Counted from the first letter of the stretch, positions 18,001-62,797 are shown. The stretch is DNA of 64,000 nucleotides from an uncultured Opitutales bacterium (GCA_943789375.1 CALSTX010000005.1:1-64000), one strand, 5' to 3'. Made by a program: numbers and translations. The notes: generated by a model not told the origin, from the letters alone.

Positions 18001-21000
18001 TATACAATCTGGGAATGAAATCACTATGGTCTTTTCTCAAAAGGGATCACTTATCTCAGCTAACCTAGACCAATTAATTGCAAGCGACCCTGAAGGCGAC
18101 TTTCTTACCTGGGAGATAAATAGCCAAAAAGCACCCAATCTTGGGCAAATCATATTGGAGTCGAACAACGAAACGATCGACAATTTGCTTTACCTTCCAA
18201 ACTTCACAGGCAGCGGAACTGACTCCTTCGCCCTTCGTGTAACAGATGGTAAAAAGTATGACGAAATCCTGATTAATGTGATTATCCTTGAAGATAATAG
18301 TGCCCCAATAATTACCGGTTATGACCTTATCCAGGGTAATCAAAATGAGTTGTTAGCTGTTGATTTTCAGGTTTTACATTCTGGCAGTTATTTCGACAGT
18401 TACATGACGAAGGGGCCCGACTGGTTAAAACTAGAGAAAATTTCTACTACTAAAATTCGTGTCACTGGGACTGTACCTAAAACATTAATTGGTTCAACCG
18501 ATGTAAGTTTTATTGTGGCATCATCAAATGCAAGGCAAACTACGAAAACTTTTACAGTGGAGATAATTGATAGTATCCCACCTTTTATTCAACTCGTTGG
18601 TGACAAGTTTGTTTCAATTAATAAGGGAGGCGAATTTCAAGAAACTGGGTATTTTGCATCAAGTCATCAAGGTGCAGACCTGACAGGAAGGGTTAGCGTT
18701 TCCCCTCAAATAGATTACAATAAGACAGGTGCATTCAAGCTAACCTATCAGGTGACTGATGACCAAGGTAATACAGCGGAAGATTTTAGGATTGTTCAGA
18801 TTTACGATAAATCCCCCCTCAATTTTTCTCACGCAACTTACCTGCATTCCACAAGCTCTCTTCATGCTCTTATATCTGACTCAGAAACTTTCTTTATTGG
18901 AGGAACATTGGTCGATGATCTTAAAACTTCCAATTCATCTTTAGTTGCTGAACAAATCCAAGTTCAATCCAACGAGTTATTTATTGGTGAGCTAGATACA
19001 AAATTAAAAAACTGGAATTGGATAATAGAGTTAAGCGGTAGCGATGTGAAACTTGGCAAAATAATTCATCGAGGTGAACATCTTTATCTAGTTGGTACAT
19101 TTTCTGAAAAGCTTACCATCGGAAATAAATTAATATACAGCCAATACCCTCGTTCCTTATTTTTGAGCAAAATAACTACGGATGGGGATTTGCTATGGAC
19201 GAAAACCTTTCATTCAAACCATACTATAGAGCAACTCCAAATTGAAGTAACAAAAGATGATCAAATACTGTTGGGAGGAAGTTTTCGGGGAGATATTTAC
19301 TTTACTGATATTGAATCAGTTGAGTCCTATGACGAAAGCCTCGACATTTTTCTTCTTAAATTGAATGAGAGAGGACAGGTACAAAATTATGCTAAGTTTG
19401 GTAAAAGTGGGGATAACCTTCTCAGTGGGGTTGCATGCGATGAGTTCGGAGTCACCCTAGCCACAAATGTGGCTAAATCAGGTGCCAGTTCGTATGGGTT
19501 ATTACTTCTCCTTGATCAACTTTTACAGATAAAGTCTTATGTCAGCTTTGAATCAGATAATTTTAGTAAATGCGAATTCTTGAAAATTGCGGAGAATGAG
19601 ATCTATCTAAGTTGTAATTATACTGATTCATTAAAGATGAATACGGGTGGAGATGGAGTTGCCCCTAAGAATGAGGTTATCAGCTTCTCCGACGGCAACT
19701 CATCTGTAATCATGAAATTGTCATCCGGTTTAGAGTTAGAGTGGTTGCATGAAATGGAATCTGGGAAAGATTTTGCTATTGAATCGATGGAACTGAGTCC
19801 CTTTGGTAATGTTATATCGCTGATTAGCTTCACTCAAAGCACGAATAGTTTGAGCCAGAATGAGGGAAGTAATTTAAGAGATCTTTCGATTCTCAAATTG
19901 CAAGGAATGAATGGTAAAATAATTTGGGAAGAACTGATTATTGGAGATGGAAATGAAGGGAATTCTTCACTTGCTGTAAATAAATATGGTTCTATCGGGA
20001 TCATGTTAAATTCTGATGAAGGAGTGATCTTAGACTCTTCATTTAATCTTGATAAAACAGAATCTGGCGAATTAATGCTTATTAAATTTCAAAGCGATGC
20101 TCCCATTGTATTTAAAGAAATGGAAGACCTTATGTTAATGGGGGGACAGTTTTTCAGCCAAGAAATTATTTTGGAAAATCGAAACTTTGCAGAATTCTCT
20201 CTTTTACAGGCACCGAATTTTATAACGATCCAAAGCACTGGCACGGGGAGAGCGACTCTTTCAGGTTTAGCTCCCAATACTGCTGCCATTGGCGAAATAA
20301 TTATTCGTTCATATGATACGGATGGAGCCAAATCAGACTTAATTATTAATTACCAAATTCAAAGAAATTTCAATTTGGTTTCCGCTGACAGTCTTCCTTT
20401 TTTTCATTCAGAGAGAACTATTCAGGGAAAAGGTAAAATTAATCGTATTATAGAATTAGAAAATCAAAAAAAGCTTGTTGTCGGAAATGCACTTACCGAT
20501 ATCACTTATCAGGAAAATACCATAAATAAACTTGGTTTGCGTTATGGTTTCATTTTACTGACCGACTCAAATCTACACTTGGAGGAAAAGGTCCAAATTA
20601 AATCTTCTAATGAAGTCGTCATCAGTGATGTAACCCAAGATCAAACAGGGAAAATATTTGTTCTCGGAACATTTAAAGAAGATCTTTTTATGGGTGGCAA
20701 AAAGTATTTTGCTTCAAATAGCCATAATGTTTTCATCGCGGAATTAACCAGTAATGGAAGTATTAGTTTGGTTAAAATTCTTGGATCAGATCGAGACCTT
20801 TTTTCTTCAGGACTTAGCTCCAATGACGGCTTGATAACAATCTCTGGTCAACTCTGGGGGAGATATTTCGATAATAATTTAGGCTCTTTCCCTTCCAATG
20901 GGATTCAGGACGGGTTTTTGGCACTACTCCAAGATCAGGAGCTGAAAAGCTTTCACACTATAGGCGGAATAGCACTGGATGAAATCATTGGGCATACTTC

Positions 21001-22534
21001 ACTAGGTAATGATACAATAGTCGCCGGTAACTTTGATGGTAGTTTTAATTGGGCTAATGATATTTACAGCGGGGAAGGGCATTCATCTTTTATCTCGAAA
21101 ATGAAAGGAAGTGTGAATGAGGAAAGCATTTCGATAATAGACAGTAGTGGTTCTGTAAAAAGTAAATATTTAAGATATAACAACACTGAAAATTCTTTTT
21201 TCCTATCTGGTGAATATGAGGGAACGATCACAGTCCAAGACCATCAAGTCTCATCATTTTCAGGCTTAGATATTTTCATCGGTAAATTTAATGAAAACCT
21301 AGAATGTATTTCCCTGGTAAGTTTTGGAGGCGAGGGAACAGACAGGCTTACAGACTTTAAAATAGATAGCGAAGGAGACTTACTTTTCTCTGCAACTTAC
21401 ACGAAACCTATATACCTAGCGGATCGTAAAGTGAGTGATGGCTATTCTCCAGGTACATATATCGCGAAACTTGATCCTGTTACTTTGGGTATCAAAGATT
21501 TTTTTAATCCTGATGAGCAAGGTATTGCAAAAATTGAAACCATAAGCCCGATCCGTCAGAACAATGTTTTGTTCACTTACTCCGGCCAAGACCCGGAGGG
21601 TAATTCTGAAATGTACATTGGTAGCCTTGGTTCACCTAGAAATAGCCCAGGTATTTCTCAAAATTTACCGAATTCAATCTCTTCAAACTCTTTTTTCACT
21701 TTTAATTTCTTAACTGGACCATGGACCGATGACAGTGTTTTACTTGAAAGAAACTCGAGCATCCCCGACTGGTTGCATGTAGACATTCAAACTGATGGAA
21801 CAGGGGAGTTATCAGGTCAACCACCTAAAAGTGACGAGGATATTAGTTATGAGATCAGCTTTGATCTTTCAAATTCACAAGGTGAAATCTTCACTTTTGA
21901 TCAAAGTCTGCTCGTTAAAGATATTTCGAGATATAAACCTCGAATCCTTATTGCAGAGGAATACACATTCAAACAATTTGAGGAAGTTGAGATTTTAATT
22001 CACTTATTCGATCTAGATAACGAGCCATTTGTAGTTCACCCCACATTACCAGATTGGCTATCCTCCAAGTTTACGGAAAATAATAAATTAGAAATTTCAG
22101 GAATTGTACCCGAAAATAAAACTGGCTCTCATAACTTTTCAATCTTAGCCACGGATAGCTCAGGTCTTATAACCCATGCGGCTTCTAAAATCATTATTAT
22201 ACCAAACCTTGGTGGTGACTCCACTGGTACCAACGATTTACCCAAAAGATGGAATCGAGAATGGATTGGTGTTTATGCTTTTACATCATCTGGTTGGTCA
22301 TTTCACACGGTCTGGGGATGGTCATGGTTTTCCCCAAATCCAGAAACCCCAGAACTTTGGTTCTTTAGCGAAAATGGAAATTGGTATTGGACGAGATCAC
22401 AATATTGGAATGGTGAAAAAAATGAAGGTTACCTTTATGAGTCTGAAAGTGGAACATGGATTTTTTGCAGACTTGAAGAGGGTGAAGCCATTAAGTATGA
22501 CTACAACTTACAAAGATGGAGTGCTTTTCCCTAG
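12020..22534 (+). CDS. Giant secreted cupredoxin/beta-propeller/cadherin-like surface protein
   Basis: 3504 residues. A signal peptide follows the second in-frame ATG (12059; MNLCLLTVACVPCTMLVHAQ). Two tandem cupredoxin-like domains come next (about 41-150 and 151-258), each with a full type-1 copper ligand set at H87/C131/H134/M137 and H197/C241/H244/M247. The C-x2-H-x2-M spacing is that of amicyanin. A third, ligand-less copy may follow (about 259-370). Then come an FG-GAP-type beta-propeller (about 377-750), some ten alternating cadherin-like and putative-Ig (He_PIG) domains (about 760-2190), an HYR/DUF5011-like domain (about 2190-2265), two further propeller regions separated and followed by Ig-like units, and a Trp/Tyr-rich C-terminal domain (about 3407-3504; GWSFHTVWGWSWFSPNP). 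It is probably a cell-surface or exported adhesin. No neighbour explains its role. Confidence 0.85.
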   Translation: MQSLRKVCYSFRIMNLCLLTVACVPCTMLVHAQSIFKESYFTVSNGHSSAPYFTFTDTEGQVPDFSTLPLYRGHTYVFTSVSVSSSHPFMIGESYGDMESSLVVGDPLTGTGGKITVSIPSDFDGSLHYFCTSHTSMLQEFSILTEPSSTFTVSGGQPSYPYYQFTDGNGQGINFSTFNLTRGGFYEFIAMDISTSHPFMIGESFGDVGSSLVSGAPLTGSGEKITVNIPSDYNGSLYNFCTEHTEMIQGFSVLSPVSQYQVINIGWNETDQSFSVSDENFPKIQALSNCHYIFKNDSNEELVLSTELESRVLSNSTLFNNGSIGPDNYLLFSPKLAGSEKESFYYYNPDSNTQYGLLEVMPYERSPLIHAPAPESDGKFSYALAVNSSNQIIAGASGENSLTGNVYVYSRSSDLSFSVTQEIAPPVEFQNSQMQFGASLSCFNDLLAISAPNDSSFEGSVFLYSKDEDGNYSFIQKITSEDPQIPNIFGYSLSITSDLLAVSSLQHGIGSGEVSLYDIDETDDSLSFRETIRSSDGVSGDYFGYDLDLNESLLVIGAPNAGDSVNGEDSGAVYIFEINDSGTWIESQKITPSSLSVDDQFGHTVCISDNFIFIGALRGDGGGVDTGAVYIFENLDGIWTEVALISPPDDGTNQLFSTDLQSIGDFLITSSPGSGTHGLVYIYDNSGESSAWNLFSTLDLNQSSVLAGNTTFAPVASSDGMIIAGSPEESASGSASGGLQAFFNPAWTSSSETPTLLPLFDGNTPTSFTISEDSGQLIYDFNASHPFGYALTWSIVTESEVLGDVSVDESTGVFQFSPHLDRHGTQNFLLTLSSENLSVSQEVEVIITSINDAPTFLNITSVPQVLPHSMVGEPFKISIEAEDSDGDSLVLEIKEGDQLPIGLDLLLNHETGFYEIIGTPSDEVVSEADDISTHTFTIICNDNSGSSPIEQTFSLTVYKRNNAPKFLVNGVESTSVSLSLTEDFDRNNWLESMQNVEVVDPDNDYISFSLIQAPSDGTVDFENQAANSNEFIIFTPAIHSTGSRTFQVRISDDDINFPKSTDFTVSIVMESVNDPPQFLSPALQEEASEGILYSHTFEIYDPDQDDLLSFEVGVLPDWLVLSDDNRTITGTPSWQDYNDGTASTIYVSLEDLSGAKVEQSYFIAVVPENLPPVIDGNANRIYYMDEDQFPTAWADVTLVATDTDESATNFNWSVSEIPSNGQVNIVNEADSTTVTYVPDGNFSGIDLFSVKVVEENDTNASDTVSFTVVVNEIEDTPVFKSYPHYNDAIVEYPWEYQINVVDGDVGQTLSLSTVGNIPPWLSFVNTQNEEAILRGIPPIGQEGEYSIVLDVVDIFGNRSTQSFTIRVLNENTAPLFSFPDENIFTIEEDEVWESENAFIIDPENQKITSLINSAPKHGSLAVSINVEKEIVIQYTPEGNYTGSDDFSLLFTDGINSDSSSFQVTIEPVDDKPSFADFPASITLSDDEDLNETIIIHDGDSLSDLQFMVENKPDWVKIDDSMLQISGIVLLSGSPSYLDEGPVDITFTVVDEMQLSSSKVLSVNVIVYNYPPDIEQDQFSVVMTEDEQSSWVSPSFSATDDHTLPEDLHWGISQHASHGTAVLEADGTNLVYQPNSNFSGVDFFTIEVSDDGGVENAGTKSSLIEISVTVNNIYDAPIFTSVPPSLRSDFITWNDESEYYYVVEASTPDSTALEINCTSNLPPWLKFTAEQATGKGILSGLAQPSDIGRYKLEFEATDGVTTIEQSFDLTIHVDNYPPVFHSTSSDIPIKKVRVFMDEDGIGGRGWVPPQNFMCYDPDPEKSNQEIIWSVSKEPQSGSALVAEGKGIRPAVFDYSPLANLNGYDEFYLRASDGIRNSDLKVEVYLRAIPDAPYFVEPTANIFQFQGGTQFNIPILAKDEDSSDLFYKFFVPEWAKKSSYNFQMVEAEEGVVLSGSLPEGAASRSIPITISVLDESGAFATTDLMLESNGTNQSPVIQSGNEITMVFSQKGSLISANLDQLIASDPEGDFLTWEINSQKAPNLGQIILESNNETIDNLLYLPNFTGSGTDSFALRVTDGKKYDEILINVIILEDNSAPIITGYDLIQGNQNELLAVDFQVLHSGSYFDSYMTKGPDWLKLEKISTTKIRVTGTVPKTLIGSTDVSFIVASSNARQTTKTFTVEIIDSIPPFIQLVGDKFVSINKGGEFQETGYFASSHQGADLTGRVSVSPQIDYNKTGAFKLTYQVTDDQGNTAEDFRIVQIYDKSPLNFSHATYLHSTSSLHALISDSETFFIGGTLVDDLKTSNSSLVAEQIQVQSNELFIGELDTKLKNWNWIIELSGSDVKLGKIIHRGEHLYLVGTFSEKLTIGNKLIYSQYPRSLFLSKITTDGDLLWTKTFHSNHTIEQLQIEVTKDDQILLGGSFRGDIYFTDIESVESYDESLDIFLLKLNERGQVQNYAKFGKSGDNLLSGVACDEFGVTLATNVAKSGASSYGLLLLLDQLLQIKSYVSFESDNFSKCEFLKIAENEIYLSCNYTDSLKMNTGGDGVAPKNEVISFSDGNSSVIMKLSSGLELEWLHEMESGKDFAIESMELSPFGNVISLISFTQSTNSLSQNEGSNLRDLSILKLQGMNGKIIWEELIIGDGNEGNSSLAVNKYGSIGIMLNSDEGVILDSSFNLDKTESGELMLIKFQSDAPIVFKEMEDLMLMGGQFFSQEIILENRNFAEFSLLQAPNFITIQSTGTGRATLSGLAPNTAAIGEIIIRSYDTDGAKSDLIINYQIQRNFNLVSADSLPFFHSERTIQGKGKINRIIELENQKKLVVGNALTDITYQENTINKLGLRYGFILLTDSNLHLEEKVQIKSSNEVVISDVTQDQTGKIFVLGTFKEDLFMGGKKYFASNSHNVFIAELTSNGSISLVKILGSDRDLFSSGLSSNDGLITISGQLWGRYFDNNLGSFPSNGIQDGFLALLQDQELKSFHTIGGIALDEIIGHTSLGNDTIVAGNFDGSFNWANDIYSGEGHSSFISKMKGSVNEESISIIDSSGSVKSKYLRYNNTENSFFLSGEYEGTITVQDHQVSSFSGLDIFIGKFNENLECISLVSFGGEGTDRLTDFKIDSEGDLLFSATYTKPIYLADRKVSDGYSPGTYIAKLDPVTLGIKDFFNPDEQGIAKIETISPIRQNNVLFTYSGQDPEGNSEMYIGSLGSPRNSPGISQNLPNSISSNSFFTFNFLTGPWTDDSVLLERNSSIPDWLHVDIQTDGTGELSGQPPKSDEDISYEISFDLSNSQGEIFTFDQSLLVKDISRYKPRILIAEEYTFKQFEEVEILIHLFDLDNEPFVVHPTLPDWLSSKFTENNKLEISGIVPENKTGSHNFSILATDSSGLITHAASKIIIIPNLGGDSTGTNDLPKRWNREWIGVYAFTSSGWSFHTVWGWSWFSPNPETPELWFFSENGNWYWTRSQYWNGEKNEGYLYESESGTWIFCRLEEGEAIKYDYNLQRWSAFP

Positions 22535-37727: not shown

Positions 37728-38582
37728 ATGATTCCTTCCTTACATACTGGGGTGTCGTCCTTGAAAAGCTTAACCGAAGGCTTGCAGGTTCTAGGTAATA
37801 ATATAGCCAATGTTAATTCCCTGGGTTACAAATCTTCGCGGGCCAATTTTTCTGACAACTTTTACATGCATGTCAATGATGCAGAATCTGGTGCGGATGG
37901 GGTTCCAAGCAACAATATCCAGCAGCACGGTACAGGCGTTCATGTCAGTTCACTTTCATCTGATTTCAATCAAGGTACAATTGAGGTAACTGGTCTCGAT
38001 TTAGATATCGCGATTCAAGGGGAGGCGCTACCCAATGCTGGTGGTTTTTTTGAGTTACAGGATCCTACCACTGGTGACTTTTTCTACACACGAGCAGGGG
38101 CATTCGAGTCAACAGTAGAAGGCTTGGTTGTTACCCGTGACCAATATCGGTTTCAGTTGCTTGATGTTGACGGCAAACCAATGACGGTTGGGCTTGAAGA
38201 TGGCGAAACTCTCTTAACCAGGAGGATCGAAGAAGATGGGGTTGTAAATCTTGTAGTAAGCCGTGAAGGCGAAGATATTATACGGAAATCAGGCCAGCTC
38301 AAAATTGCTAATTTTCAATCCCCTCAATACCTTAGAAGAGTAGGGAACGGTTTTTACTCCAATGGGCAGGAAGGTCAAAACCTAGCCGGAGTCCTTGACA
38401 ACTCCATCCCAGCTGTTGGATCGAATGGTAAGATTAAGCAATACGCACTCGAGCTTTCCAATGTTGATTTAACCAACGAATTCGCGGCCATGATTTCATA
38501 CCAAAGATCTTTCCAGGCAGGTTCTAGGGTTATTACAACATCAGATGCGATTTTAACCGAAGCAGTAAACCTCAAACGATAG
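37728..38582 (+). CDS. flgE: Flagellar hook protein FlgE, short form
   Basis: 284 residues. N-terminal rod/hook motif LQVLGNNIANVNSLGYKSSR, and a C-terminal D0 helix EFAAMISYQRSFQAGSRVITTSD. Typical FlgE is 400 or more residues; this protein has little beyond the D0/D1 core, only slightly larger than the FlgG rod protein (260) in the same cluster. The ATG at 37728 follows flgD after 6 bases. Position after flgD supports hook rather than rod identity. Confidence 0.85.
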   Translation: MIPSLHTGVSSLKSLTEGLQVLGNNIANVNSLGYKSSRANFSDNFYMHVNDAESGADGVPSNNIQQHGTGVHVSSLSSDFNQGTIEVTGLDLDIAIQGEALPNAGGFFELQDPTTGDFFYTRAGAFESTVEGLVVTRDQYRFQLLDVDGKPMTVGLEDGETLLTRRIEEDGVVNLVVSREGEDIIRKSGQLKIANFQSPQYLRRVGNGFYSNGQEGQNLAGVLDNSIPAVGSNGKIKQYALELSNVDLTNEFAAMISYQRSFQAGSRVITTSDAILTEAVNLKR

Positions 38583-42619: not shown

Positions 42620-43744
42620 ATGGCCGATGTTGATAAGAGTTCCAAGACTGAGCCTCCAACCGAGAAAAGACTGTCTGAATCCAGATCAAAAGGACAGTTT
42701 GCGAAAGCGCCAGAGATCGCGATGACCTTTACAATGCTTGCGGGGTTGCTAGTGATTGTATTTTTAGCACCCGCAAAAGCCTCTGAATTACTCGTCTTTA
42801 CAAGGTCAATGCTTGAGAATATAAATTCGATACAGGCGAGTCAGGAAGGCGTTGCTCATACTCTAACATCCTCATACTTCTCTCTGTCTCTAATTGTCAT
42901 CCCAATGCTTGCAAGTTGTTTTTTAGCAGCCTTAATTGCGGAGGGTCTTCAGACTGGCTTTAGGTTCACTCCCAAAGCGATAGAGCCAAAATTTAATAAA
43001 CTAAACCCAATCACGGGAACGCAAAGAATTTTTGGGCTGAAAGCACTAAAAACATTTTTCATTGATTTAATGAAATTTTTGGCGATTGGGACAGTTGTTT
43101 GGATTACCCTTCTAATTTTTCTGGATGACCCAATATTTTATGCTCCTGTACCCATCCAGCATCTACCGCAATTTATATATAAATTATTCCTCGTTATGTT
43201 CACTATTCTGCTATTAATGCTGACAATAATAGCAATCATCAACTACTTCATTAAAAAGAAAGAGCATGATGATGAGATGAAAATGACCAAGCAAGAAGTA
43301 AAAGAAGAAAGGAAAAGTAAAGAAGTCTCCTCAGAGGTAAAAACAGCTCAAAGAAAAAAAGCGATGGAACTCTTGGGCGGGCAGGGAGTAGCTGATGTTT
43401 CAACTGCGGATGTTGTTGTGACCAACCCAACTCACTATGCGGTTGCATTAAAATATGAAAAAGGCACGGATAATGCTCCTATTGTTGTCGCGAAAGGAGA
43501 TAATCTATTGGCCAGAAGAATAAAAATAATAGCAAAGGAGCATGAAGTTCCTATGATTGAGAACAAACCAGTTGCTCAAACTCTTTTTGCATTGGGACGT
43601 GTAGGTGAACCAATTCCTCTTCAAATGTATCAAGTTGTAGCGTCTATTTTAGCGGATGTTTACAAAAAACACGCTTATTATTTTCATCGACTTAAAGCGA
43701 GAAGGCTGCTGGCTAAACTGCCAACTGCTAAAGCATTTTCATGA
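42620..43744 (+). CDS. flhB: Flagellar export specificity switch FlhB
   Basis: 374 residues. The opening KTEPPTEKRLSESRSKGQ is typical, four membrane helices follow, and the cytoplasmic domain has the autocleavage motif NPTH at residues 269-272 (TNPTHYAVALKYE). Cleavage after Asn269 switches export from hook to filament substrates, working with FliK. It overlaps flhA by ATGA. Confidence 0.95.
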   Translation: MADVDKSSKTEPPTEKRLSESRSKGQFAKAPEIAMTFTMLAGLLVIVFLAPAKASELLVFTRSMLENINSIQASQEGVAHTLTSSYFSLSLIVIPMLASCFLAALIAEGLQTGFRFTPKAIEPKFNKLNPITGTQRIFGLKALKTFFIDLMKFLAIGTVVWITLLIFLDDPIFYAPVPIQHLPQFIYKLFLVMFTILLLMLTIIAIINYFIKKKEHDDEMKMTKQEVKEERKSKEVSSEVKTAQRKKAMELLGGQGVADVSTADVVVTNPTHYAVALKYEKGTDNAPIVVAKGDNLLARRIKIIAKEHEVPMIENKPVAQTLFALGRVGEPIPLQMYQVVASILADVYKKHAYYFHRLKARRLLAKLPTAKAFS

Positions 43745-45967
43745 GCGAAACATGGCAAAATATTCGCTCTTTTTTTTCCCGTTTTGGGGGGAATTCAGAC
43801 TTGGGCTTCGTTTTTGGTCTTTTCGGTGCCGTTCTTCTACTCGTCCTTCCAGTTCACAAGGATTTGCTTAGCATTCTTCTGGTCTTCAGTATTGCTATAT
43901 CTTTGCTCATTCTGCTGACAGTAATTTATGTCAAAGACCCTCCTGAGTTTTCAGTATTCCCCACCTTACTTCTCGCGGTTACACTCTATCGGCTTGGACT
44001 CAATGTTGCCTCAACCCGCTTGATACTTTTGGACGGAGATGCAGGCTCAGTCATCTATTCTTTTGGAACTTTTGTGGTGGGAGGCAATTATGTCGTGGGT
44101 GCAGTCATATTTTTAATTTTGGTAATCATCAATTTTGTTGTCATCACAAAGGGTGCTGGGAGAATTGCTGAAGTGACAGCTAGGTTCACATTGGATGCGA
44201 TGCCCGGAAAGCAAATGTCTATTGATGCTGAAATGAATTCTGGTGTTATCACGGAGGCACAAGCCTTGGAAAGGCGAGAGAAAATCCAAAAAGATGCAGA
44301 CTTTTATGGATCCATGGATGGTGCGAGTAAATTTGTACGTGGGGATGCAGTCGCAGGTATTTTTATTACCGTGGTAAATATTATTGGCGGTATTTTGATT
44401 GGATATTTTCAACGAGATATGACTATGTCTGATTCCCTTCAAACTTACACTATACTTTCAATTGGAGATGGTTTAGTTACTCAGATCCCGGCAATCATTG
44501 TATCCATTGCAGCCGGTATTCTTGTTACCCGTTCATCCGAGGAGTCCAACCTTGGTGAGTTTGTAGGCAAGCAACTAACTGTATACCCTAAAGCAATTGG
44601 CATAGCAGGAGCGATGCTCTTAATGTTTGCTTTCTTTCTTTCCGAAACATTCTGGCCATTTCTTCTTGTTGTCTATCGCTTGCTTTGGGGCCGCTTATTA
44701 TTTCTCTCAAAAATCCAAAGATGCCACTCTCGAGGACATTTCTTCGGGTAACCCACAGATTGCAAACCATGGAGCCACCCCTCCTAAAGGTTTACCTTCT
44801 CCGCAAAGTGGAGATAGCGCTATGCAGGCTCCAGACGCCTCACAACTCTCCCCCATGGAAAGTGCGATTGAGCAAGAAGTTTTTGGTCTTGAAATGGGTT
44901 ATGGTCTTTTGGTTCTCGCCGACAAAAAGAAAGGTGGTGACTTGCTTGAAAGAATTACTGGTGCCAGAACTAATTTTGCCAAAGAAATGGGGATGCTCTT
45001 ACCCACTATTGGTGTGCGCGACAATATTGAACTTGAACCAAATGAATACAGGTTCTTACTTCGCGGCAAAGAGATCACACGAGCAAGCGTGATACCAGAC
45101 CGAGCGCTTGCTATGAGTATGGGCGGGGGAGATGCAGGCAAACTCAACGGTATACCCACCACTGAACCTGTATTTGGGATTAGTGCCATGTGGATTCCCG
45201 AAGATGAAAAGCGCCATGCTGAAGTCGAAGGGTGCACCGTGGTTGATCCGTCTTCTGTCTTGGTTACACATTTATCTGATGTGCTTAAAAGAACCGCTCA
45301 CCTCATTCTTGAAAGAGAAGGTACGCAGAGATTACTGGACCTGATAAAAGACAAAAACCCAACTTTGGTTAGTGAACTACTTCCCGACTTGGTAAATGTT
45401 GGTGTCATCCAAAGAACCCTGCAAAATTTACTTAGAGAACGTATACCTATAAAAAATTTAACCCTGATTCTTGAAACGATTGCAGATATGGCAAGTCTCA
45501 CCAAGAACCCTGATGACTTATCTGAACAAACGAGAAAAAGATTGGGGATGTATTTCATAAAAGAATTTGAATCGGATACAAATAAACTTGTGGCGATGAC
45601 TTTTGAGCCAACGCTTGAGCAAACATTAATTTCTCGGGTCAAACGAAGTCAATTTGACATCGGGTTAGTTATGGACCCTCAACTCACCGAAGGCATCATC
45701 AAAGAGATTGAACCAAAAATCAAAGAAATGAGCGAAAGTGGTATCACTCCAGTTATTGTTACTACTGCTGAATTGAGATTAGCTTTCAGAAGATTTATGG
45801 AACCCTCCTATCCACAGCTTGTTGTGTTGGCATACCAGGAATTGCCTGCGGAGACTCAAATTGAACCATTTGGTGCCATAGCTCTTGCTGATCAAAGCCT
45901 GCCGGAAGAAATTATTAATGCCATGGAAAAACAGCAAGCGCCTGGAGATGTCCCGGTTGCTGCCTAA
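43741..45967 (+). pseudogene. flhA: Flagellar export protein FlhA, one single-base frameshift
   Basis: Frame one (43741-44751) carries the membrane domain: KDPPEFSVFPTLLLAVTLYR, then the FHIPEP-like region AGRIAEVTARFTLDAMPGKQ and the switch segment EAQALERREKIQKDADFYGS. Frame two (open from 44627 to 45967) carries the last membrane helix and the whole cytoplasmic domain with VRDNIELEPNEYRFLLRG and the C-terminal block LTEGIIKEIEPKIKE. They overlap at the T-rich run 44629-44641. Removing one T gives AFFFPKH and a continuous protein of 741 residues, close to the usual 690-710. All other export-gate genes are intact, so a sequencing error or a programmed shift is likelier than inactivation. Confidence 0.85.
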
Positions 45968-51209: not shown

Positions 51210-51992
51210 ATGAACTTATCACTTTATTCTGGAGCAACAGGCATGCAGGCCCAACAACTTAATCTCAATGTTATTTCCAACAACATTGCCAATGTGAACA
51301 CCACGGGTTACAAAAAGAATAAAATTGAATTTCAAGATCTTCTCTACCAAAATCCTCGTCAAGCCGGTGGGCAGACAGGTGCAGGAAATGTGATTCCTAC
51401 AGGAGTGGAAATGGGTAACGGTACCAAAGTTGTATCTACTGCTAAAATTTTCACCCAAGGTCAGCTTACTCAGACCAGCGAAAAAATGGATGTTGCCATT
51501 GACGGGGTAGGGTTTTTCCAGGTTGAAAAACCAGACGGCACTGAAGCTTACACAAGGGATGGTGCATTTAAGATTGGTCCTGATGGTCAAATTACTACCG
51601 CTGATGCCTTACCTTTAGCTGCGGGTCTGCAAATTGACCCTGAGGTTACCAATGTTTTTGTATCACCGACGGGTGAAGTTTCTGTGGAAACTGCTGATGG
51701 TAGCCAAATTATTGGACAGCTAGAGCTTGTTCGTTTCCCAAACCCTGCTGGTATGAAAGCACAGGGTGGCAATTTATTCACCGAAACAGAAGCTAGTGGT
51801 GCTCCAGAAATCGGAGCTCCTGGAGAAAATGGTTTTGGTGTTCTACAACAAGGCTACCTAGAAATGTCTAATGTTAATGTTGTAGAGGAGATGGTGAATA
51901 TGATTATCGCTCAACGTGCTTACGAAATTAATTCTAAGTCGATTCAGACATCGGACGACATGCTTGCCCGAGTCAATCAACTTAAAAGATAA
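51210..51992 (+). CDS. flgG: Flagellar distal rod protein FlgG
   Basis: 260 residues, standard length. The motif LNLNVISNNIANVNTTGYKK and the end VVEEMVNMIIAQRAYEINSK match FlgG closely. It forms the distal rod and lies 10 bases after flgF. Confidence 0.95.
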   Translation: MNLSLYSGATGMQAQQLNLNVISNNIANVNTTGYKKNKIEFQDLLYQNPRQAGGQTGAGNVIPTGVEMGNGTKVVSTAKIFTQGQLTQTSEKMDVAIDGVGFFQVEKPDGTEAYTRDGAFKIGPDGQITTADALPLAAGLQIDPEVTNVFVSPTGEVSVETADGSQIIGQLELVRFPNPAGMKAQGGNLFTETEASGAPEIGAPGENGFGVLQQGYLEMSNVNVVEEMVNMIIAQRAYEINSKSIQTSDDMLARVNQLKR

Positions 51993-55486: not shown

Positions 55487-58400
55487 ATGTCTTTACTTGG
55501 AGAAATAAGCAAAAACAGCGAAGCCTTACGCTATCACGCGAAGACTGCGGAAATTGCTGGCCAAAATTTAGCCCATGTAAATGATGAAACATATGCCCGC
55601 CAAAAGGTTTTGGCTCGGGAAGGTGTAATGTATGGTAGTTTTGGTGAACTACAAACATCTGGTCTTGAGGCGGCGGGCTTGGAGCATGCGAGATCTGAAT
55701 TGTTGGACAAACGTGTTGTCAATGAACTGTCAGAAACTGCTAGCTTAGAAGCACAAAAAGAAATATTAGATCTTCTTCAGGGAGCATTGGGTGAAACCAT
55801 CACCCGTAATGGTATTAATGTTGGTCTTGATGACCTTCATGATAGTGACCTTGCTCCAGGCAGCCTTACTCGGGCACTCAATGACTTTTTTAATGCATTT
55901 CAAGAGCTATCTGCTTCTCCAGATGAGCCAACCATCAAACAGGAACTTTTTAATAAAACTCAAACCTTAGTTAAAAGGTTTAACGATGCAGGAAGTAGTC
56001 TGGACTCCATTGAGGAAGATCTTTCCGAAACAGTCAAAAGATCAGTCGATGATGTAAACCGGGTGCTTGCTCAACTGCATGAAACCAACAAGCAAGTACG
56101 CCGCTTTGAACTTCAGGATAAAGGTAAAGCGGTAACTTACCGTGATAAACGGCAAGCTCTCCTTGAAGAGTTGTCTCAATTGATGGATTTCAAAGTCGAA
56201 GAAGATGTAGTGGATGGAAAACCGTCTGGCTTCCTTAATCTGTATGTCCAGGGGACCGCGAATGAGAAGGTAAATCTCCTTGATCCTATGGGACCCAAAA
56301 ATATCACCAACGACTGGGGCCAGGAATTTGCAATTGCATCACCCTCTGACCCCAATGGTAAAACTGCAAAAGTAAGAGCTAAGGTTGATGCCAATGGCAA
56401 TCTGGGTCGCTTTGAAGTATTGGATGGAGGTTCATTGTATAATGACTCTGAAGGACCGATCTTAGTTTCTTTACTTCCCCCAAAGCCCACATCTAATCTT
56501 ATCGAGACAGATACTGGCGAGGTTGTTTCTGCTCCGAAAGGTGGGACCATTAATGAGGTTTTTGTCCAGGAGGGGGATAAAGTTCAGCAAGGTGATGCAC
56601 TTGTAAATGTCGATGTTACTGCTAATGATGCAGTTGCAAATGCAGAAGGAGTCATTGGCGGAGAAGGAGGCATTAATGCCCCGGTTGATGATGGAGGAGA
56701 AATCTCGAATGTAACGGGTGGACAAAGGTCTAACACAGTTCCCGTTTTAACTGAGATTGCTCGCAAAGAAGGTGATGTCTTTTATCAGGGAGATTCTTAC
56801 TACCAAGCTCTTACAAATAGTCAAAAAGGTGACGATGTCAGTGACACTCGCAAGTTTATGAAAATTTCCACTTGGCCAAACGGACAGGTACAGGAAATTA
56901 AAAAAAGACATTCAGATATTGAAACCTTTCAGCAAGGTGACCAAATTTACTACGAAGGAAAGTTTCTTCAAGCAACGGAAGAAGTTGCCCCAATTTCTGA
57001 AGAACTGGGAACAGATGGTACAGCTAGTCGTACTTATTTAGCTGGTGAAGTTATTTTATATCAAGGTACCTATTACCAAGCCTTTCAGAATCTGAATAAA
57101 GGAACTGATTTATCTGGAATTCTTACTAGTACTAGTGAAGATGGCACAGAATCATCCAAGGCGACAGGTGACCAGACTCTAGACAGTTTATGGGTTATCG
57201 GAGAAAACCTGGCTTCAATTGCTAATTCCAAACCTGAGGGTGTAGACGAAAATGGTGAGGTTTCTTTCACTAAGGGTGATATTATCTCGAGCCTTAATAC
57301 CAGTAATGAAATTCTTTATTATCTGACCATAAAAGATGTGCCTGATGGAGATATCCCCAACTTCGAAGAATCTGATTCTTTTGTCAGAATGAATTCTTTT
57401 GTGGATACGGTTAAAAAACTAGATCTTAGTCAGGGGTCGCTTCAATTTTTTGATAACGAAATTTACTATGACGAAGGGAGTGACCAACACTTCATTGTAG
57501 ACTCTTCTCCGAATATCATAACTGACCAGGAAGTTCTTGCTTCGTTTGATCCCTCTGCTGCTGAATGGTCCAAAAACTTTCATGTTTTTAAGCCAAAAAT
57601 AATTGATGCGGAACCCACGAGCATTATCCGTAAAATTTCTTCATCCGGACACAACCTCTCAAATGGTGTCCTTCAAGAAGTGAATATAGGTATCGCCGAA
57701 GCCGTAGTCAAAAATGGGGAGATTACAACATTCAACCTTCTCAATGCGGGTAATTCTTTCCCCTCCTCCGATGCAATTTTTTCGGACGGCATAGAATTAG
57801 ACTTGAATGCGGGCTCTATCCATGGATATCAATCAGCAAGATCTGAAGAGATGGAAAGATTCCGAACGAGCCTTAATGATCTCGTTTCAGATTTTGCCAC
57901 ACAAGTTAACAGTATCTACAACCCAGATGACGAGCAGGGTGGATATTTATTTGGATTCGATGCTTTCCTTACCCGTGCGGTTGCTGGAAATAATCTCATT
58001 ATGGAAGAAGAGTATGGGCTTTATGGGGTTGAGGGAACCGGAGAATTACAACTATTTAGGGATGAAGTGAATATGACTTTGCCTACGGCAGAATCTGATA
58101 CATTTACTATCGTTAATACTACTCCTATTTTTCCAGAACAAGTCCCTAATCAAGCTTTGGTGAGAGAAAGTGATGACCTGAAGTTATTCCTGGATGACCC
58201 GAATAATTCAGACATTTACCAATTCTATGCTTCTGCACGAAGAATGCAGCATGTTACTTTAGAGGTAGATGAAACTTATCCTGGCAATGACAAACTAGTT
58301 GGAACGGCCGACGACGGTAGATCACTCCTGCTTGGTTACGAAACCATTCCATTCAGGATAGAACAAGGAGAAAAAGCATTTATTATTGGCGATAACTTTT

Positions 58401-58804
58401 CCTTTGATGCAGTTTTACAAAATGACTGGAATCTTGCCACCAGTCTTAGGATTGATAACGACCTCACAGTTGATAATCTTAAGTCGACCCATGATTTTGC
58501 TGAAGGTGCCAACGAGATTGCTTTTAAAATCGGCGATTTAGCCAATGATGGAGAATTTACCTCTCACATTTCAACAATGAATGCTGACATTGGTAACTCC
58601 TTGTCAGATCTTAATGATAACCTTGATCATCAAAAATCACTCGAGACTCTGCTTTTGGATCAGCGCCGGGCGGTAAGCTCAGTATCTGTAGACGAAGAGG
58701 TATCGGATTTGATGCAATTCCAACGCTCCTTTCAGGCATCTGCCCGCGTATTGAATACTCTCGACAAAATGCTCGAACTTGTTGTGCTTGGCTTAGTTAA
58801 ATAA
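55487..58804 (+). CDS. flgK: Giant hook-filament junction protein FlgK with lectin-like inserts
   Basis: 1105 residues, about twice the usual 450-650. The N-terminal D0/D1 region (ALRYHAKTAEIAGQNLAHVN) and C-terminal D0 region (SDLMQFQRSFQASARVLNTL) are typical FlgK. The large middle carries extra modules. An NG...GG motif (about 293-328, repeated about 732-775) comes first, then a lipoyl/biotinyl-like segment (about 341-424; GGTINEVFVQEGDKVQQGD). Several chitin-binding type-3-like units follow (about 428-455, 481-501, 516-543; YQGDSYYQALTNSQKGDD and AGEVILYQGTYYQAFQNLNK). It is exported and incorporated with FlgL. Binding of polysaccharides is inferred only from these motifs. Confidence 0.88.
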   Translation: MSLLGEISKNSEALRYHAKTAEIAGQNLAHVNDETYARQKVLAREGVMYGSFGELQTSGLEAAGLEHARSELLDKRVVNELSETASLEAQKEILDLLQGALGETITRNGINVGLDDLHDSDLAPGSLTRALNDFFNAFQELSASPDEPTIKQELFNKTQTLVKRFNDAGSSLDSIEEDLSETVKRSVDDVNRVLAQLHETNKQVRRFELQDKGKAVTYRDKRQALLEELSQLMDFKVEEDVVDGKPSGFLNLYVQGTANEKVNLLDPMGPKNITNDWGQEFAIASPSDPNGKTAKVRAKVDANGNLGRFEVLDGGSLYNDSEGPILVSLLPPKPTSNLIETDTGEVVSAPKGGTINEVFVQEGDKVQQGDALVNVDVTANDAVANAEGVIGGEGGINAPVDDGGEISNVTGGQRSNTVPVLTEIARKEGDVFYQGDSYYQALTNSQKGDDVSDTRKFMKISTWPNGQVQEIKKRHSDIETFQQGDQIYYEGKFLQATEEVAPISEELGTDGTASRTYLAGEVILYQGTYYQAFQNLNKGTDLSGILTSTSEDGTESSKATGDQTLDSLWVIGENLASIANSKPEGVDENGEVSFTKGDIISSLNTSNEILYYLTIKDVPDGDIPNFEESDSFVRMNSFVDTVKKLDLSQGSLQFFDNEIYYDEGSDQHFIVDSSPNIITDQEVLASFDPSAAEWSKNFHVFKPKIIDAEPTSIIRKISSSGHNLSNGVLQEVNIGIAEAVVKNGEITTFNLLNAGNSFPSSDAIFSDGIELDLNAGSIHGYQSARSEEMERFRTSLNDLVSDFATQVNSIYNPDDEQGGYLFGFDAFLTRAVAGNNLIMEEEYGLYGVEGTGELQLFRDEVNMTLPTAESDTFTIVNTTPIFPEQVPNQALVRESDDLKLFLDDPNNSDIYQFYASARRMQHVTLEVDETYPGNDKLVGTADDGRSLLLGYETIPFRIEQGEKAFIIGDNFSFDAVLQNDWNLATSLRIDNDLTVDNLKSTHDFAEGANEIAFKIGDLANDGEFTSHISTMNADIGNSLSDLNDNLDHQKSLETLLLDQRRAVSSVSVDEEVSDLMQFQRSFQASARVLNTLDKMLELVVLGLVK

Positions 58805-58813
58805 TTTACTTAA

Positions 58814-61800
58814 ATGCGATTACCAAATCTTAGCGTCTCCGACTCCATCACGAATACTATTCGTGATCTGGATATGCAGCGTTACAAGTTGGATAAACAA
58901 ATATCTAGCGGCCAAAAGATTACTTTACCTGAAGATGATGGTATGCGTTTGGGTCGTGTTATTGACATCGATACTGAAAAGGGAAAGCTTGCCCAGTACC
59001 AAAGAAATGCCTCTTACGCTTCGGAATTTATAAATGCGGGGCACCTAAACCTTGATAATCTGAGGGAACTAAACCAACGAGCTCAAGAGATTTCAAGAGT
59101 TGCAGGCTCGAGCCTAAATGGTCCTGCAATGGAAACCTATGGTAATGAAATTAACCAACTTATTGAAGAGGCACTCAATCGCATAAATGCAACGCACAGA
59201 GGGCGGGCTCTTTTTGCAGGAACACAACTCAAACCTGAGTTCAGTAATTCCGAGATTCAACTTGGTAAAGAACAGAATTCTATCATTTCCCTGAACTCCA
59301 GTTTTGTTGGTGAGGTTGGAGCCGATGGTTTGAGGCAAATAAAAGCAGGAGAGGAAGTAGTCATACACCTAAACGGCAGAGAATATGTTATCAAAGCAAC
59401 CGCCGATGGACTGTCTACGGAAAAAATTACAGAACTTGCAAATGAACTGGTAAATTCTGATCCAGAAATTCTTGCTGACTTTACCCCACTCAATGGGGAA
59501 AACTATAATGCATTTATCCGTGGTTCAGTAGGCTCAGATACCCCGAGAAACAGTAGCGTTAAACTTTATTCCGAAATTTCTACTAATGGTGATTTACTAG
59601 TTTATGGAACTGCAGGTAAAACCTACAACGCCAAGGCAGAGTATTTAACCCAGTGGGACCCAAACCATTATTACCCAAATCAAATTGAGGCCAAAAGGGT
59701 AAGCCAGACTGAAGCATTGTACCCAGGTTCTTCCTATGAAAACTTGACCTCTTCGGAGAAAAAAGCTGTTGATGATGCAGTTTTTGAGTCGCCAAACGGT
59801 TCATTTTCGCTCTGGAGTGACAAACTTTCTTTCAAAGCAGGAGATCGTGTGTATGACGATATCTCCGACCCTGAAGCACCTCGATTCCTTCAATTTAAGG
59901 CTCCAGTTAAAGGGAATTGGGGACCTGATGAGTATACTCAGAATGATTTTGTTTTTCATGATGGTGCATGGCACAAGGTCTTAGACCCCAACGGTACCCA
60001 GAGCAATGATGTACCCCATAACCCTGCAGGGCTTGTTTCTTTCAACCCTAACTTAGCCTATTCTGCCGGTGAGGTTCTTCAGGCAGACAATAAACAGGTT
60101 GTGGTTGCCGGAGAGATTATGAAAGGTCAATTTGACTCCTTTGCCAATTATTCGGCTGGTGATGTTGTTCAAGATGGCGGAGCGTTCTATTCCCTTGACG
60201 CTGATGCTGCAATTTCTCTCTCCACTGAGTGGAATGTTTCTAATTACCCACAGGGTTCTGTGGTCAGGCATAACGGAGTTTATTACGAAGCTTCTGTTGC
60301 CGTAAGTAGTGATACTGACTCTACGGACTATGATATTACAAATCCGGGTAACTCATCGAAATGGTCTAGCCTTGGATCATCTATCGCTTCTATCTCAACC
60401 AAAATAAATGGTATTTTAACTGATGTAAGTGTTGCCGTTGAGAATCAAGCCACAACAGCAAACATTGACTTTGCTGCCCCTGTTGACGGTGTTCCTGTTT
60501 ATTTTACAGGATCTGCCTTTCAGTCAATTGATTTAGCTGACCTCAACAGTTTTAGTCCCATAACAGTTAATGCTGATAACGAGGGTATCACATTTGAGGA
60601 AATTCCCAAAGATTCTATCGATCCGACATGGACGCAAGAGATTATTGTGGGTACTTCTTCTACCGATGGTACAACAAATCTCTCTGTCACGCATTCAGAT
60701 CCCTGGAAGAGACTTCAAACCTATGAACTCGGTAGCATTATTGAGTTTGAAGGCAAACTTTGGGAGTCCCAAATTAATGATAATTTCAATCACAAGCCAA
60801 CCTTAGCTAGTTCGAATTATTGGAAAGAATTACCATCAGGTTACAGTGTTGATCGAGAGGATTGGAGTGTGGAAGCTTCAGGCATGTCGCTCAAAGAATT
60901 TCATGTTTCACTGGATGGAAGGTTGTTTAATGAATTCTCAGAAGCCAAGAGCCACAACAGTGATATTCTACTTTTTTCCAAAGATGCCTTACCTGTAGGT
61001 GCAACTCCTGAAGATTTAGATTTACTTGCGGAAGAAAAGGTCAAAACGATTTCTTATCCAGTGGCAACTTTTGATGTTAAGGGTTCAGAGTCTGAGGGAA
61101 CTGTTTACTTCGACCATCAAACTCAGGCATATAGATTGGCCGCTGCTGCTGAAGGAAGTCAGGTCATATCTAGCCAGATGATTACTTTTGAGCAACCTGT
61201 TGAACAATTCGAAGGACAGTATTTCATACCAACCGACGATGCTTTAGTAACTGACAGTTCGTTGTGGCTTTCCATTCAAGATGAATTCCCGCCAAATGTT
61301 GTACAGATCACTGAAGGCGAACCTTTTAATTTATTAAAAGGTGAGTATATCTATGACGAATCTCTTGATAAATACTTTATTGCGACTGCTAATTCAAATA
61401 CAGATACTACTGTGGATGGATTTGACCCCAGCAACCCGTCCGCATCTGTAGCCAATATTCGTGAGGCTTCAGCCCGAAGCGACGGTACAGTATTTAAGCT
61501 CACGACCCTCCCTAAAGAGGGACAAGAAAAAGTTTTTTCTAGTGCAGCGGACAATACTCAACTTGCTCTAGATACTGGTGATTACATCTACCACCAGGAA
61601 GAAAAAGCTTACTATGTTGCAACAGATGCGGCTACTATAGATAGTAATGAAGCTTTCGAAGCACTTTTAGCTGAAAACAAAATGTTAAAAGTTCCTGCTG
61701 AAGTTCGCACCCAAGGCACAGAGTGGGCTTCAAACAAAACATACCAATCAGGAGATATTGTCCTGTATGATGGCCAATATTATAGAAGCCTTCGTGATAA

Positions 61801-62797
61801 CTTTAATAACTTCTTGCCATCTGCTGATTTTCTTGGGTCCACAGAAATGATTTTGCCAGATTCCGAGCTGATTCCGAGCGTAGATGGACAGTCACAAGTT
61901 GCGAATTATATATGGGAGGTTGTTGACAACCCTCTTCAGCATGTTCTGCAATTTGATGCCACCCGCAAAGATGCGCCGAAAGTTACAGTTCCTACAGCTG
62001 GTGCTGCGGGTTCAGATGCATTAGCCAAGGCTGTTGTTGATGCAAATGGAAATGTAGTTGGACTCAAAGTGGAAGACGCGGGTCAATACTTTTTTCAAGA
62101 TGGCAACATCCCTCAAGACTTCCAAAAAGTTACAGTCCAAGTGGGGCAAGAAACACTAGAGGCAACGATATTATGGCAAGAAAACCCTAATGATCCGGGT
62201 CCATACCGTATTGCGGGTTTTGAACTAATCGAGCCAGAAGAGCCAATTACAAGTCTTGCACCTACAGGACCCCGTGTCGGTGACACATTCTCATTTGCTA
62301 CTGGATCTAAAACCTTTCTTGATCACCGCAACGAAAAAGGTGAGATTGTAAGTGTTTCTTACACGGGATCAGAAAATAATTCCAAATTTTATGTGGGTAA
62401 AGAAAGTGCAATCACTTCATTTTTAAATTCTGCTGATGGTGGCACTGCTGAACTTGGAGATGTGGTCAATACTTTAGTTGAACTTCGAGATGGTTTAGCT
62501 GAAGCTACGCCATCTTTCTATTCCCAAGAAGTTGAAGATTCTGAGAAAAAGCTCATCGAGCTTGAAGACAACATTATCGATAAGATGGGTGAACTTACCG
62601 CTAGTATGGTTCGTATGGAAACAGTCAAAGCTCATGATGAAGATTACTTCATGCAACTCGATCAAAGAATATCACGTGACTTAGATATTGATCTTTCCGA
62701 GACGATCATGAGGCTTTCTCGTGTGTCCACAGCTTATCAAGCAGCTATGCAAGTAGGAGCACAACTGCTTAATACATCCTTACTGAATTACCTGTAA
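58814..62797 (+). CDS. flgL: Giant hook-filament junction protein FlgL with lectin-like inserts
   Basis: 1327 residues, against about 300-550 in most bacteria. The N-terminal third starts as a normal FlgL (QRYKLDKQISSGQKITLPED; HRGRALFAGTQLKPEF), and the C-terminal helix (SRVSTAYQAAMQVGAQLLN) closes it. The central roughly 1000 residues hold repeated CBM5/12-like motifs at about 369-395, 410-432, 443-462, 473-497, 630-662 and 970-1006, for example YPQGSVVRHNGVYYEAS and YQSGDIVLYDGQYYRSL. Other repeats read EYIYDESLDKYFIAT, and an NG...GG motif lies at about 1069-1116. It is 9 bases after flgK. Confidence 0.88.
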   Translation: MRLPNLSVSDSITNTIRDLDMQRYKLDKQISSGQKITLPEDDGMRLGRVIDIDTEKGKLAQYQRNASYASEFINAGHLNLDNLRELNQRAQEISRVAGSSLNGPAMETYGNEINQLIEEALNRINATHRGRALFAGTQLKPEFSNSEIQLGKEQNSIISLNSSFVGEVGADGLRQIKAGEEVVIHLNGREYVIKATADGLSTEKITELANELVNSDPEILADFTPLNGENYNAFIRGSVGSDTPRNSSVKLYSEISTNGDLLVYGTAGKTYNAKAEYLTQWDPNHYYPNQIEAKRVSQTEALYPGSSYENLTSSEKKAVDDAVFESPNGSFSLWSDKLSFKAGDRVYDDISDPEAPRFLQFKAPVKGNWGPDEYTQNDFVFHDGAWHKVLDPNGTQSNDVPHNPAGLVSFNPNLAYSAGEVLQADNKQVVVAGEIMKGQFDSFANYSAGDVVQDGGAFYSLDADAAISLSTEWNVSNYPQGSVVRHNGVYYEASVAVSSDTDSTDYDITNPGNSSKWSSLGSSIASISTKINGILTDVSVAVENQATTANIDFAAPVDGVPVYFTGSAFQSIDLADLNSFSPITVNADNEGITFEEIPKDSIDPTWTQEIIVGTSSTDGTTNLSVTHSDPWKRLQTYELGSIIEFEGKLWESQINDNFNHKPTLASSNYWKELPSGYSVDREDWSVEASGMSLKEFHVSLDGRLFNEFSEAKSHNSDILLFSKDALPVGATPEDLDLLAEEKVKTISYPVATFDVKGSESEGTVYFDHQTQAYRLAAAAEGSQVISSQMITFEQPVEQFEGQYFIPTDDALVTDSSLWLSIQDEFPPNVVQITEGEPFNLLKGEYIYDESLDKYFIATANSNTDTTVDGFDPSNPSASVANIREASARSDGTVFKLTTLPKEGQEKVFSSAADNTQLALDTGDYIYHQEEKAYYVATDAATIDSNEAFEALLAENKMLKVPAEVRTQGTEWASNKTYQSGDIVLYDGQYYRSLRDNFNNFLPSADFLGSTEMILPDSELIPSVDGQSQVANYIWEVVDNPLQHVLQFDATRKDAPKVTVPTAGAAGSDALAKAVVDANGNVVGLKVEDAGQYFFQDGNIPQDFQKVTVQVGQETLEATILWQENPNDPGPYRIAGFELIEPEEPITSLAPTGPRVGDTFSFATGSKTFLDHRNEKGEIVSVSYTGSENNSKFYVGKESAITSFLNSADGGTAELGDVVNTLVELRDGLAEATPSFYSQEVEDSEKKLIELEDNIIDKMGELTASMVRMETVKAHDEDYFMQLDQRISRDLDIDLSETIMRLSRVSTAYQAAMQVGAQLLNTSLLNYL

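Follow-up and report, generated by a model that had tools for sequence, protein, structure and literature searches.

CBM5/12-fold modules in the giant hook-filament junction proteins of an uncultured Opitutales bacterium

We analyzed a 64,000-nucleotide stretch of DNA from an uncultured Opitutales bacterium (GCA_943789375.1 CALSTX010000005.1:1-64000; hereafter "the window"), which closes with a run of flagellar genes. The last two, flgK (55487–58804) and flgL (58814–62797), are complete open reading frames (ORFs) encoding giant versions of hook-filament junction proteins 1 and 3, i.e., 1105 and 1327 amino acids (aa), respectively. Sequence profiles, profile searches of solved structures, and fold prediction all confirmed that the inserts of both proteins contain modules with the fold of the carbohydrate-binding module (CBM) families 5 and 12 (CBM5/12, ChtBD3-like). 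Across the bacterial family, the junction, subunit, and cap proteins of the filament are enlarged two to four times by added small domains. This is probably a lineage-specific expansion of outer domains along the whole filament-side axis, drawn from a recycled CBM5/12 fold and primarily structural in role. A thick, coordinated filament surface is more likely than a chitin glue.

Module arrays between standard FlgK and FlgL ends

Both proteins keep the standard D0/D1 ends, and their small outer domains are replaced by arrays of 700–1000 residues, which make up the rest of each protein. Both genes and all of their parts listed below lie on the + strand, as do the two internal controls. The ends of FlgK match TIGR02492 (flgK_ends; E = 6.5e-51, 174 bits, just above the curated cut-off of 170.75), FlgK_D1 (E = 5e-28, 98.7 bits, residues 126–254), and solved FlgK chains in the PDB (8.9e-13); the N-terminal D0/D1 part spans residues 1–254 (55487–56248) and the C-terminal part residues 1027–1105 (58565–58801). 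Those of FlgL match TIGR02550 (E = 3.1e-37, 128.8 bits, just above the curated cut-off of 127.2) and solved FlgL chains, with Flagellin_N above its cut-off and Flagellin_C alone weak (E = 0.85). Here, the D0/D1 part covers residues 1–199 (58814–59410), and the D1/D0 part, matched by TIGR02550 and by the C-terminal region shared in our FlgL search, residues 1191–1327 (62384–62794). The two genes are direct neighbors, in the flgK-flgL order expected for a genuine FlgL.

Both lengths are far above the norm. Of 385 genomes sampled from the class, 105 encode FlgL and 105 FlgK, with usual frames of 300–350 aa for FlgL (almost all) and 470–570 aa for FlgK; these frames were measured from stop to stop, which overstates some genes. 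One other genome of the sample encodes a real 875-aa FlgK. Long FlgL frames elsewhere in the class (846–1019 aa) were considered as potential relatives and rejected, as the readable ones hold genes of ~300 aa (307 aa in G276, 326 aa in G265; this gene-level reading does not extend to L050, L051, and L053).

A module profile built from 14 hand-picked copies detected three copies in FlgK and seven in FlgL at 24.7–38.5 bits, while shuffled proteins (n = 100) scored ≤1.7 bits. Since the FlgK and FlgL copies had themselves seeded this profile, we repeated the search in leave-one-out mode, with the closest homologue of each copy removed as well: 9 of the 14 copies still matched, several of them weakly, and the FlgL modules starting at residues 369, 631, 837, and 916 were not recovered. 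The FlgK modules occupy residues 423–453 (56753–56845), 478–503 (56918–56995), and 515–544 (57029–57118), each identified by the module profile, leave-one-out, and conservation. Those of FlgL lie at residues 369–404 (59918–60025), 442–464 (60137–60205), 473–505 (60230–60328, also found by leave-one-out), 631–672 (60704–60829), 837–869 and 916–948 (61322–61420 and 61559–61657, both divergent), and 971–1005 (61724–61828).

The Pfam profile CBM_5_12 matched FlgL as a whole (E = 1.1e-11, 45.0 bits against a cut-off of 26.2), with module 971–1005 as the best single match and itself above the cut-off (29.0 bits). Module 631–672, with the pattern WKR..Y..G.....GKLWES....N.NH.P...YWKEL, reached 13.3 bits, below the cut-off yet of some independent support; it is kept in FlgL throughout the family, and its aromatic positions are invariant in seven FlgLs. 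For FlgK, the same Pfam profile was under the cut-off and not significant (E = 2.3, 8.7 bits), and its modules are supported instead by the module profile, by conservation, and by the predicted fold.

Next, we compared the modules with solved structures, using a profile of full-length modules, some of them from flagellins and FliDs, which tests the module family and not FlgL alone. The best match was a Vibrio chitin deacetylase (4.6e-6), followed by the Anabaena contractile-injection protein All3316 (1e-5) and a chitinase chitin-binding domain (2rts, 4.1e-5), with weaker matches to phage and pyocin fibres. AlphaFold2 models were predicted from alignments of seven (FlgL) and six (FlgK) rows and searched with Foldseek. 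The FlgK model retrieved chitin deacetylases (best E = 7e-3, probability 0.97), and the FlgL model retrieved the same deacetylases together with the chitin-binding domain of Streptomyces griseus ChiC (2D49; probability 1.00, template modeling (TM) score 0.70, 2.0 Å over 54 columns, E = 0.14). Among the viral models searched, CBM5/12 and ChiC_BD phage proteins ranked high, in long alignments with low TM-scores that we take as supportive only.

A chance recurrence of the motif was ruled out by the shuffled proteins and by the independent Pfam (E = 1.1e-11 on FlgL), PDB (down to 4.6e-6), and Foldseek (probability 1.00) evidence. The PDB profile matches and the Foldseek matches of both models likewise ruled out inserts made of ordinary D2/D3 domains only, an outcome that an earlier note on this DNA, made from the sequence alone, had named as refuting it. 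That note had placed FlgK and FlgL correctly (55487–62797), and its further claims of normal termini, of a CBM5/12-like motif recurring at least three times in FlgK and six times in FlgL (we find three and seven modules), and of unusual length were all borne out, even though FlgK falls short by Pfam.

Loss of chitin-contact residues

In CBM5 domains, chitin is contacted by a consecutive, exposed Y/W-W pair and a third Tyr, and residues Y265 and W299 of CjCBM5 belong to the fold core (PMC8449059). To examine these positions, we built an alignment of seven reference domains and 126 non-redundant modules. Core columns stay aromatic, in 75% and 89% of modules at two Tyr columns (the former column 41) and in 81% of 58 modules at the terminal Trp column (column 106). 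The CBM5 Y/W-W pair, by comparison, is aromatic in 0 of the 126 modules, and the site of the third Tyr, three positions ahead of the terminal Trp, in 0 of 33. For CBM12, we take the exposed Trp687 of ChiA1 (W-x-P) to be the chitin-binding residue, and its column (column 84) is aromatic in 2% of 104 modules. A search of the loop, whose alignment is less certain than that of the core, found aromatic-x-Pro ([WYF]xP) in 13 modules, just one of them with Trp.

At the level of this alignment, the modules are thus shown to have kept the fold core and lost the chitin-contact aromatics of both CBM5 and CBM12. The recurring aromatics noticed in the earlier note are fold-core Tyr and Trp, so that its motif marks the fold and not a binding site; virtually none of the 126 modules has the exposed chitin-binding aromatics. 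In flagellar proteins of this sort, a CBM_5_12 annotation should therefore not be read as chitin binding. Column 60, directly before the core Tyr, is aromatic in 74% of modules and T, N, R, or V in the four tabulated reference CBMs, and could provide either a packing face or a new ligand face. A GH18 chitinase was found in two of six family genomes and none in the window's assembly, which is weak evidence only.

Enlarged axial proteins across the family and exchange of modules

Giant FlgL proteins are not limited to the window. FlgL was matched in 36 of 42 family genomes, whose named records are Opitutales/Verrucomicrobiota assemblies, and frames reaching both ends of the protein are mostly 880–1500 aa long. 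The FlgL search also matched a second gene, encoding a flagellin of ~1000 aa and adjoining fliD. Across the family, this fliD-linked flagellin is enlarged (about 640–1010 aa) and usually carries a module, with Pfam CBM_5_12 scores under the cut-off. FliD frames range from 769 to 1951 aa, and modules were detected in some of these FliDs although no FliD was included in the profile seed set. Overall, module matches among the 422 ORFs of the fetched loci were restricted to FlgL, FlgK, flagellin, and FliD, two matches labelled "other" being cut pieces of FlgK.

Module content tracks flagellin length: among 51 flagellin ORFs, some of them cut at locus ends, all 22 with modules are ≥522 aa, and 28 of the 29 without are ≤485 aa. 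The remaining one is a 2065-aa flagellin without detectable modules (G040, L109:791-6985). FlgE/F/G-type proteins are of ordinary size in the six genomes considered, and two of them serve as internal controls in the window: a FlgG-type rod protein of 260 aa without modules (51210–51992) and a protein of 284 aa (37728–38582) tentatively assigned to the FlgE type. The extreme members of the family include the 1951-aa FliD (G022, L105:1423-7275) and a FlgK-like ORF of at least 1660 aa (G008, L063:828-5807). Flagellin N-domain matches number 33 in a single genome (G031) and 10–27 in several relatives.

The window's own assembly (92% complete) contains no giant flagellin, no FliD, and no DNA matching the 9.4-kb locus of a sibling genome. 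Since this sibling, whose FlgL is 91% identical to that of the window, does have the giant flagellin locus, the absence is presumably an assembly gap. Besides FlgL, the only Flagellin_N match in the window's assembly is a divergent 539-aa flagellin without modules on another contig (L042:4338-5957, G000 contig C14).

Modules may also have moved between these proteins. A module block at FlgL residues 334–584 (59813–60565) is about 38–42% identical to the giant flagellin of sibling genomes and is missing at this position from the FlgL of more distant relatives. A tree of this shared block joins the FlgL blocks of the window's lineage to flagellins of four relatives with 100/100 support; a further set of FlgL blocks lies elsewhere in the tree, on a long branch. 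The approximately unbiased test rejected a common clade of all FlgL blocks (p-AU 0.028), a value that is only indicative because the test came after sight of an earlier tree. The nesting of FlgL blocks with flagellins, combined with their absence from distant FlgLs, suggests a transfer from flagellin to FlgL, a direction that is not proven.

Between the window and its sibling, the ratio of non-synonymous to synonymous substitution rates (dN/dS) is 0.025 for FlgK and 0.045 for FlgL, and values for the FlgL modules at residues 626–680 and 965–1015 (0.022 and 0.012) are similar to those of the structural ends. The fastest-evolving segment is the FlgL linker at residues 531–625 (0.156). These values are approximate, since most segments have a dS close to 1 or higher. 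Overall, purifying selection on FlgK and FlgL is strong, and this holds for their modules as well.

Other features of the window include a lipoyl/HlyD-like barrel-sandwich half-motif at FlgK residues 346–375 (56522–56611; Biotin_lipoyl_2, 1.3e-5), which by eye lacks a modifiable lysine and is confined to the window's closest relatives. A second half may follow near residues 393–425, again judged by eye. A one-base difference near 44700 breaks flhA (43741–45967) into two overlapping frames of 336 and 446 aa. The gene is intact in relatives G032 and G018 (741 and 744 aa), and the split may be an assembly error or a true frameshift, which are not distinguishable here. A protein of 3504 aa (12020–22534) combines Big_9, He_PIG, cadherin-like, and FG-GAP domains and is probably a large surface adhesin.

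Filament coat, adhesion, and known systems

By analogy with D2/D3 domains, the module arrays would point outward. We propose that flagellin would have acquired a bulky coat first, and that the junction and cap proteins would then have grown by drawing on the same module kit, which would keep the hook-proximal base, the filament, and the tip sterically matched. The outcome would be a thicker, decorated filament or filament segment, on which contact with a ligand or surface would be possible but secondary, through residues outside the canonical chitin platform. Elsewhere, giant flagellins give thick filaments (PMC6248924), the D2 domains of FlgK and FlgL are surface-exposed, and in Campylobacter the outer domains of FliD abut a bulky FlgL D2 (PMC12221982). 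Several observations weigh against such a coordinated expansion. In Bermanella and Oleibacter, the giant flagellin occurs alongside shorter FlgL-like proteins (PMC6248924), so enlargement does not have to be matched. Short flagellins are also encoded by many of the relatives; the giant one may therefore be a minor component, in a filament that is not necessarily thick throughout. In addition, the module profile found nothing in some FliDs and in the 2065-aa flagellin, both AlphaFold2 models score low in overall confidence (mean pLDDT, a per-residue confidence measure, of 54.6 and 46.9), and, with the fliD/giant-flagellin locus missing from the window's assembly, co-expansion is inferred from relatives.

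Several alternative functions can be weighed against the same data. The modules could be true CBMs that hold a polysaccharide, not necessarily chitin, at the junction, filament, and tip through a different aromatic face. The CBM5/12 fold recovered by the PDB profile and Foldseek, the strong constraint on the modules, the additional aromatic at column 60 that sets them apart from reference CBMs, and the similar folds in phage proteins annotated as carbohydrate-binding all fit such an adhesive organelle, but every tested chitin-contact position is lost, no GH18 chitinase was found in the window's assembly, and glycan specificity is not readable from sequence; we regard it as a possible but clearly less probable explanation. 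Somewhat less probable still is a flagellum acting as a lectin organelle along its whole length, in which arrays of a repurposed CBM5/12 module on the junction, on part of the filament, and on the tip cap would bind a non-chitin polysaccharide via a new aromatic face; if so, the flagellum would both propel the cell and anchor it on algal or detrital glycans. It is improbable that the outer domains form an antigenic or phage-evasion coat, diversifying through a mobile module kit to escape flagellotropic phages or grazers. Modules are indeed gained and lost among relatives and common to flagellin and FlgL, the FlgL linker evolves fastest, and D2/D3 domains have been described as phage attachment substrates (PMC7018530); however, the modules are strongly constrained between siblings (dN/dS 0.01–0.07), and positive selection was not seen.

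A chitin-binding collar confined to the hook-filament junction is very unlikely. The presence of modules in FlgK and FlgL, the Pfam name, and the closest solved structures, which are chitin-binding domains, would be consistent with it, but the chitin-binding residues are absent and the modules are shared with the giant flagellin and FliD of the family. Of the carbohydrate-binding collar put forward in the earlier note, the CBM5/12 fold of the inserts is supported, and neither chitin binding nor a restriction to the junction is. Lacking the residues that grip chitin, the domains seem closer to an evolved coat of the filament than to an established sticky collar.

Enlarged flagellins and foreign domains in flagellin were already known. 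We found no relevant papers on FlgK or FlgL with carbohydrate-binding modules, and no report in the open-access literature searched of a coordinated expansion of FlgK, FlgL, FliD, and a flagellin with one shared module family. Such an expansion raises the testable structural question of whether junction and cap proteins must match the bulk of the filament, and the further question of how modules travel between flagellar proteins. At the level of the fold, the modules share with known CBM5 and CBM12 domains (ChtBD3; PF02839; 1ED7, 2D49, 6Z40, and Vibrio chitin-oligosaccharide deacetylases) the core Y..G(D)-V-Y-x-G-x-Y-x-A and the terminal Trp, but lack the Y/W-W pair, the third Tyr, and the W687 equivalent, and are inserted in flagellar axial proteins instead of enzymes. 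A similar fold is found in the extracellular fibrous or baseplate machines of phages, pyocins, and extracellular contractile injection systems (All3316, 7B5H; the F2-pyocin fibre; fibres of Agrobacterium phages 7-7-1 and Milano), whereas the proteins described here are flagellar and encoded in an ordinary flagellar gene run.

Among flagellar systems, flagellinolysin (PMC5595980) likewise carries a foreign domain in the outer region of flagellin, but this domain is an enzyme and limited to flagellin, in contrast to a non-enzymatic module kit spread across four axial proteins. In Campylobacter jejuni (PMC5691160, PMC12221982), the junction proteins FlgK and FlgL and the cap protein FliD also bear additional or bulky outer domains, smaller than those described here; the word "carbohydrate" does not occur in the text of either paper. 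Finally, the giant flagellins of Bermanella and Oleibacter (PMC6248924, in a text search of which no carbohydrate-related domain came up) resemble those of this family in their length of ~1000 aa and enlarged outer region. There, the other flagellin-like protein is shorter and FlgL-like, whereas here FlgK, FlgL, and FliD are enlarged too.

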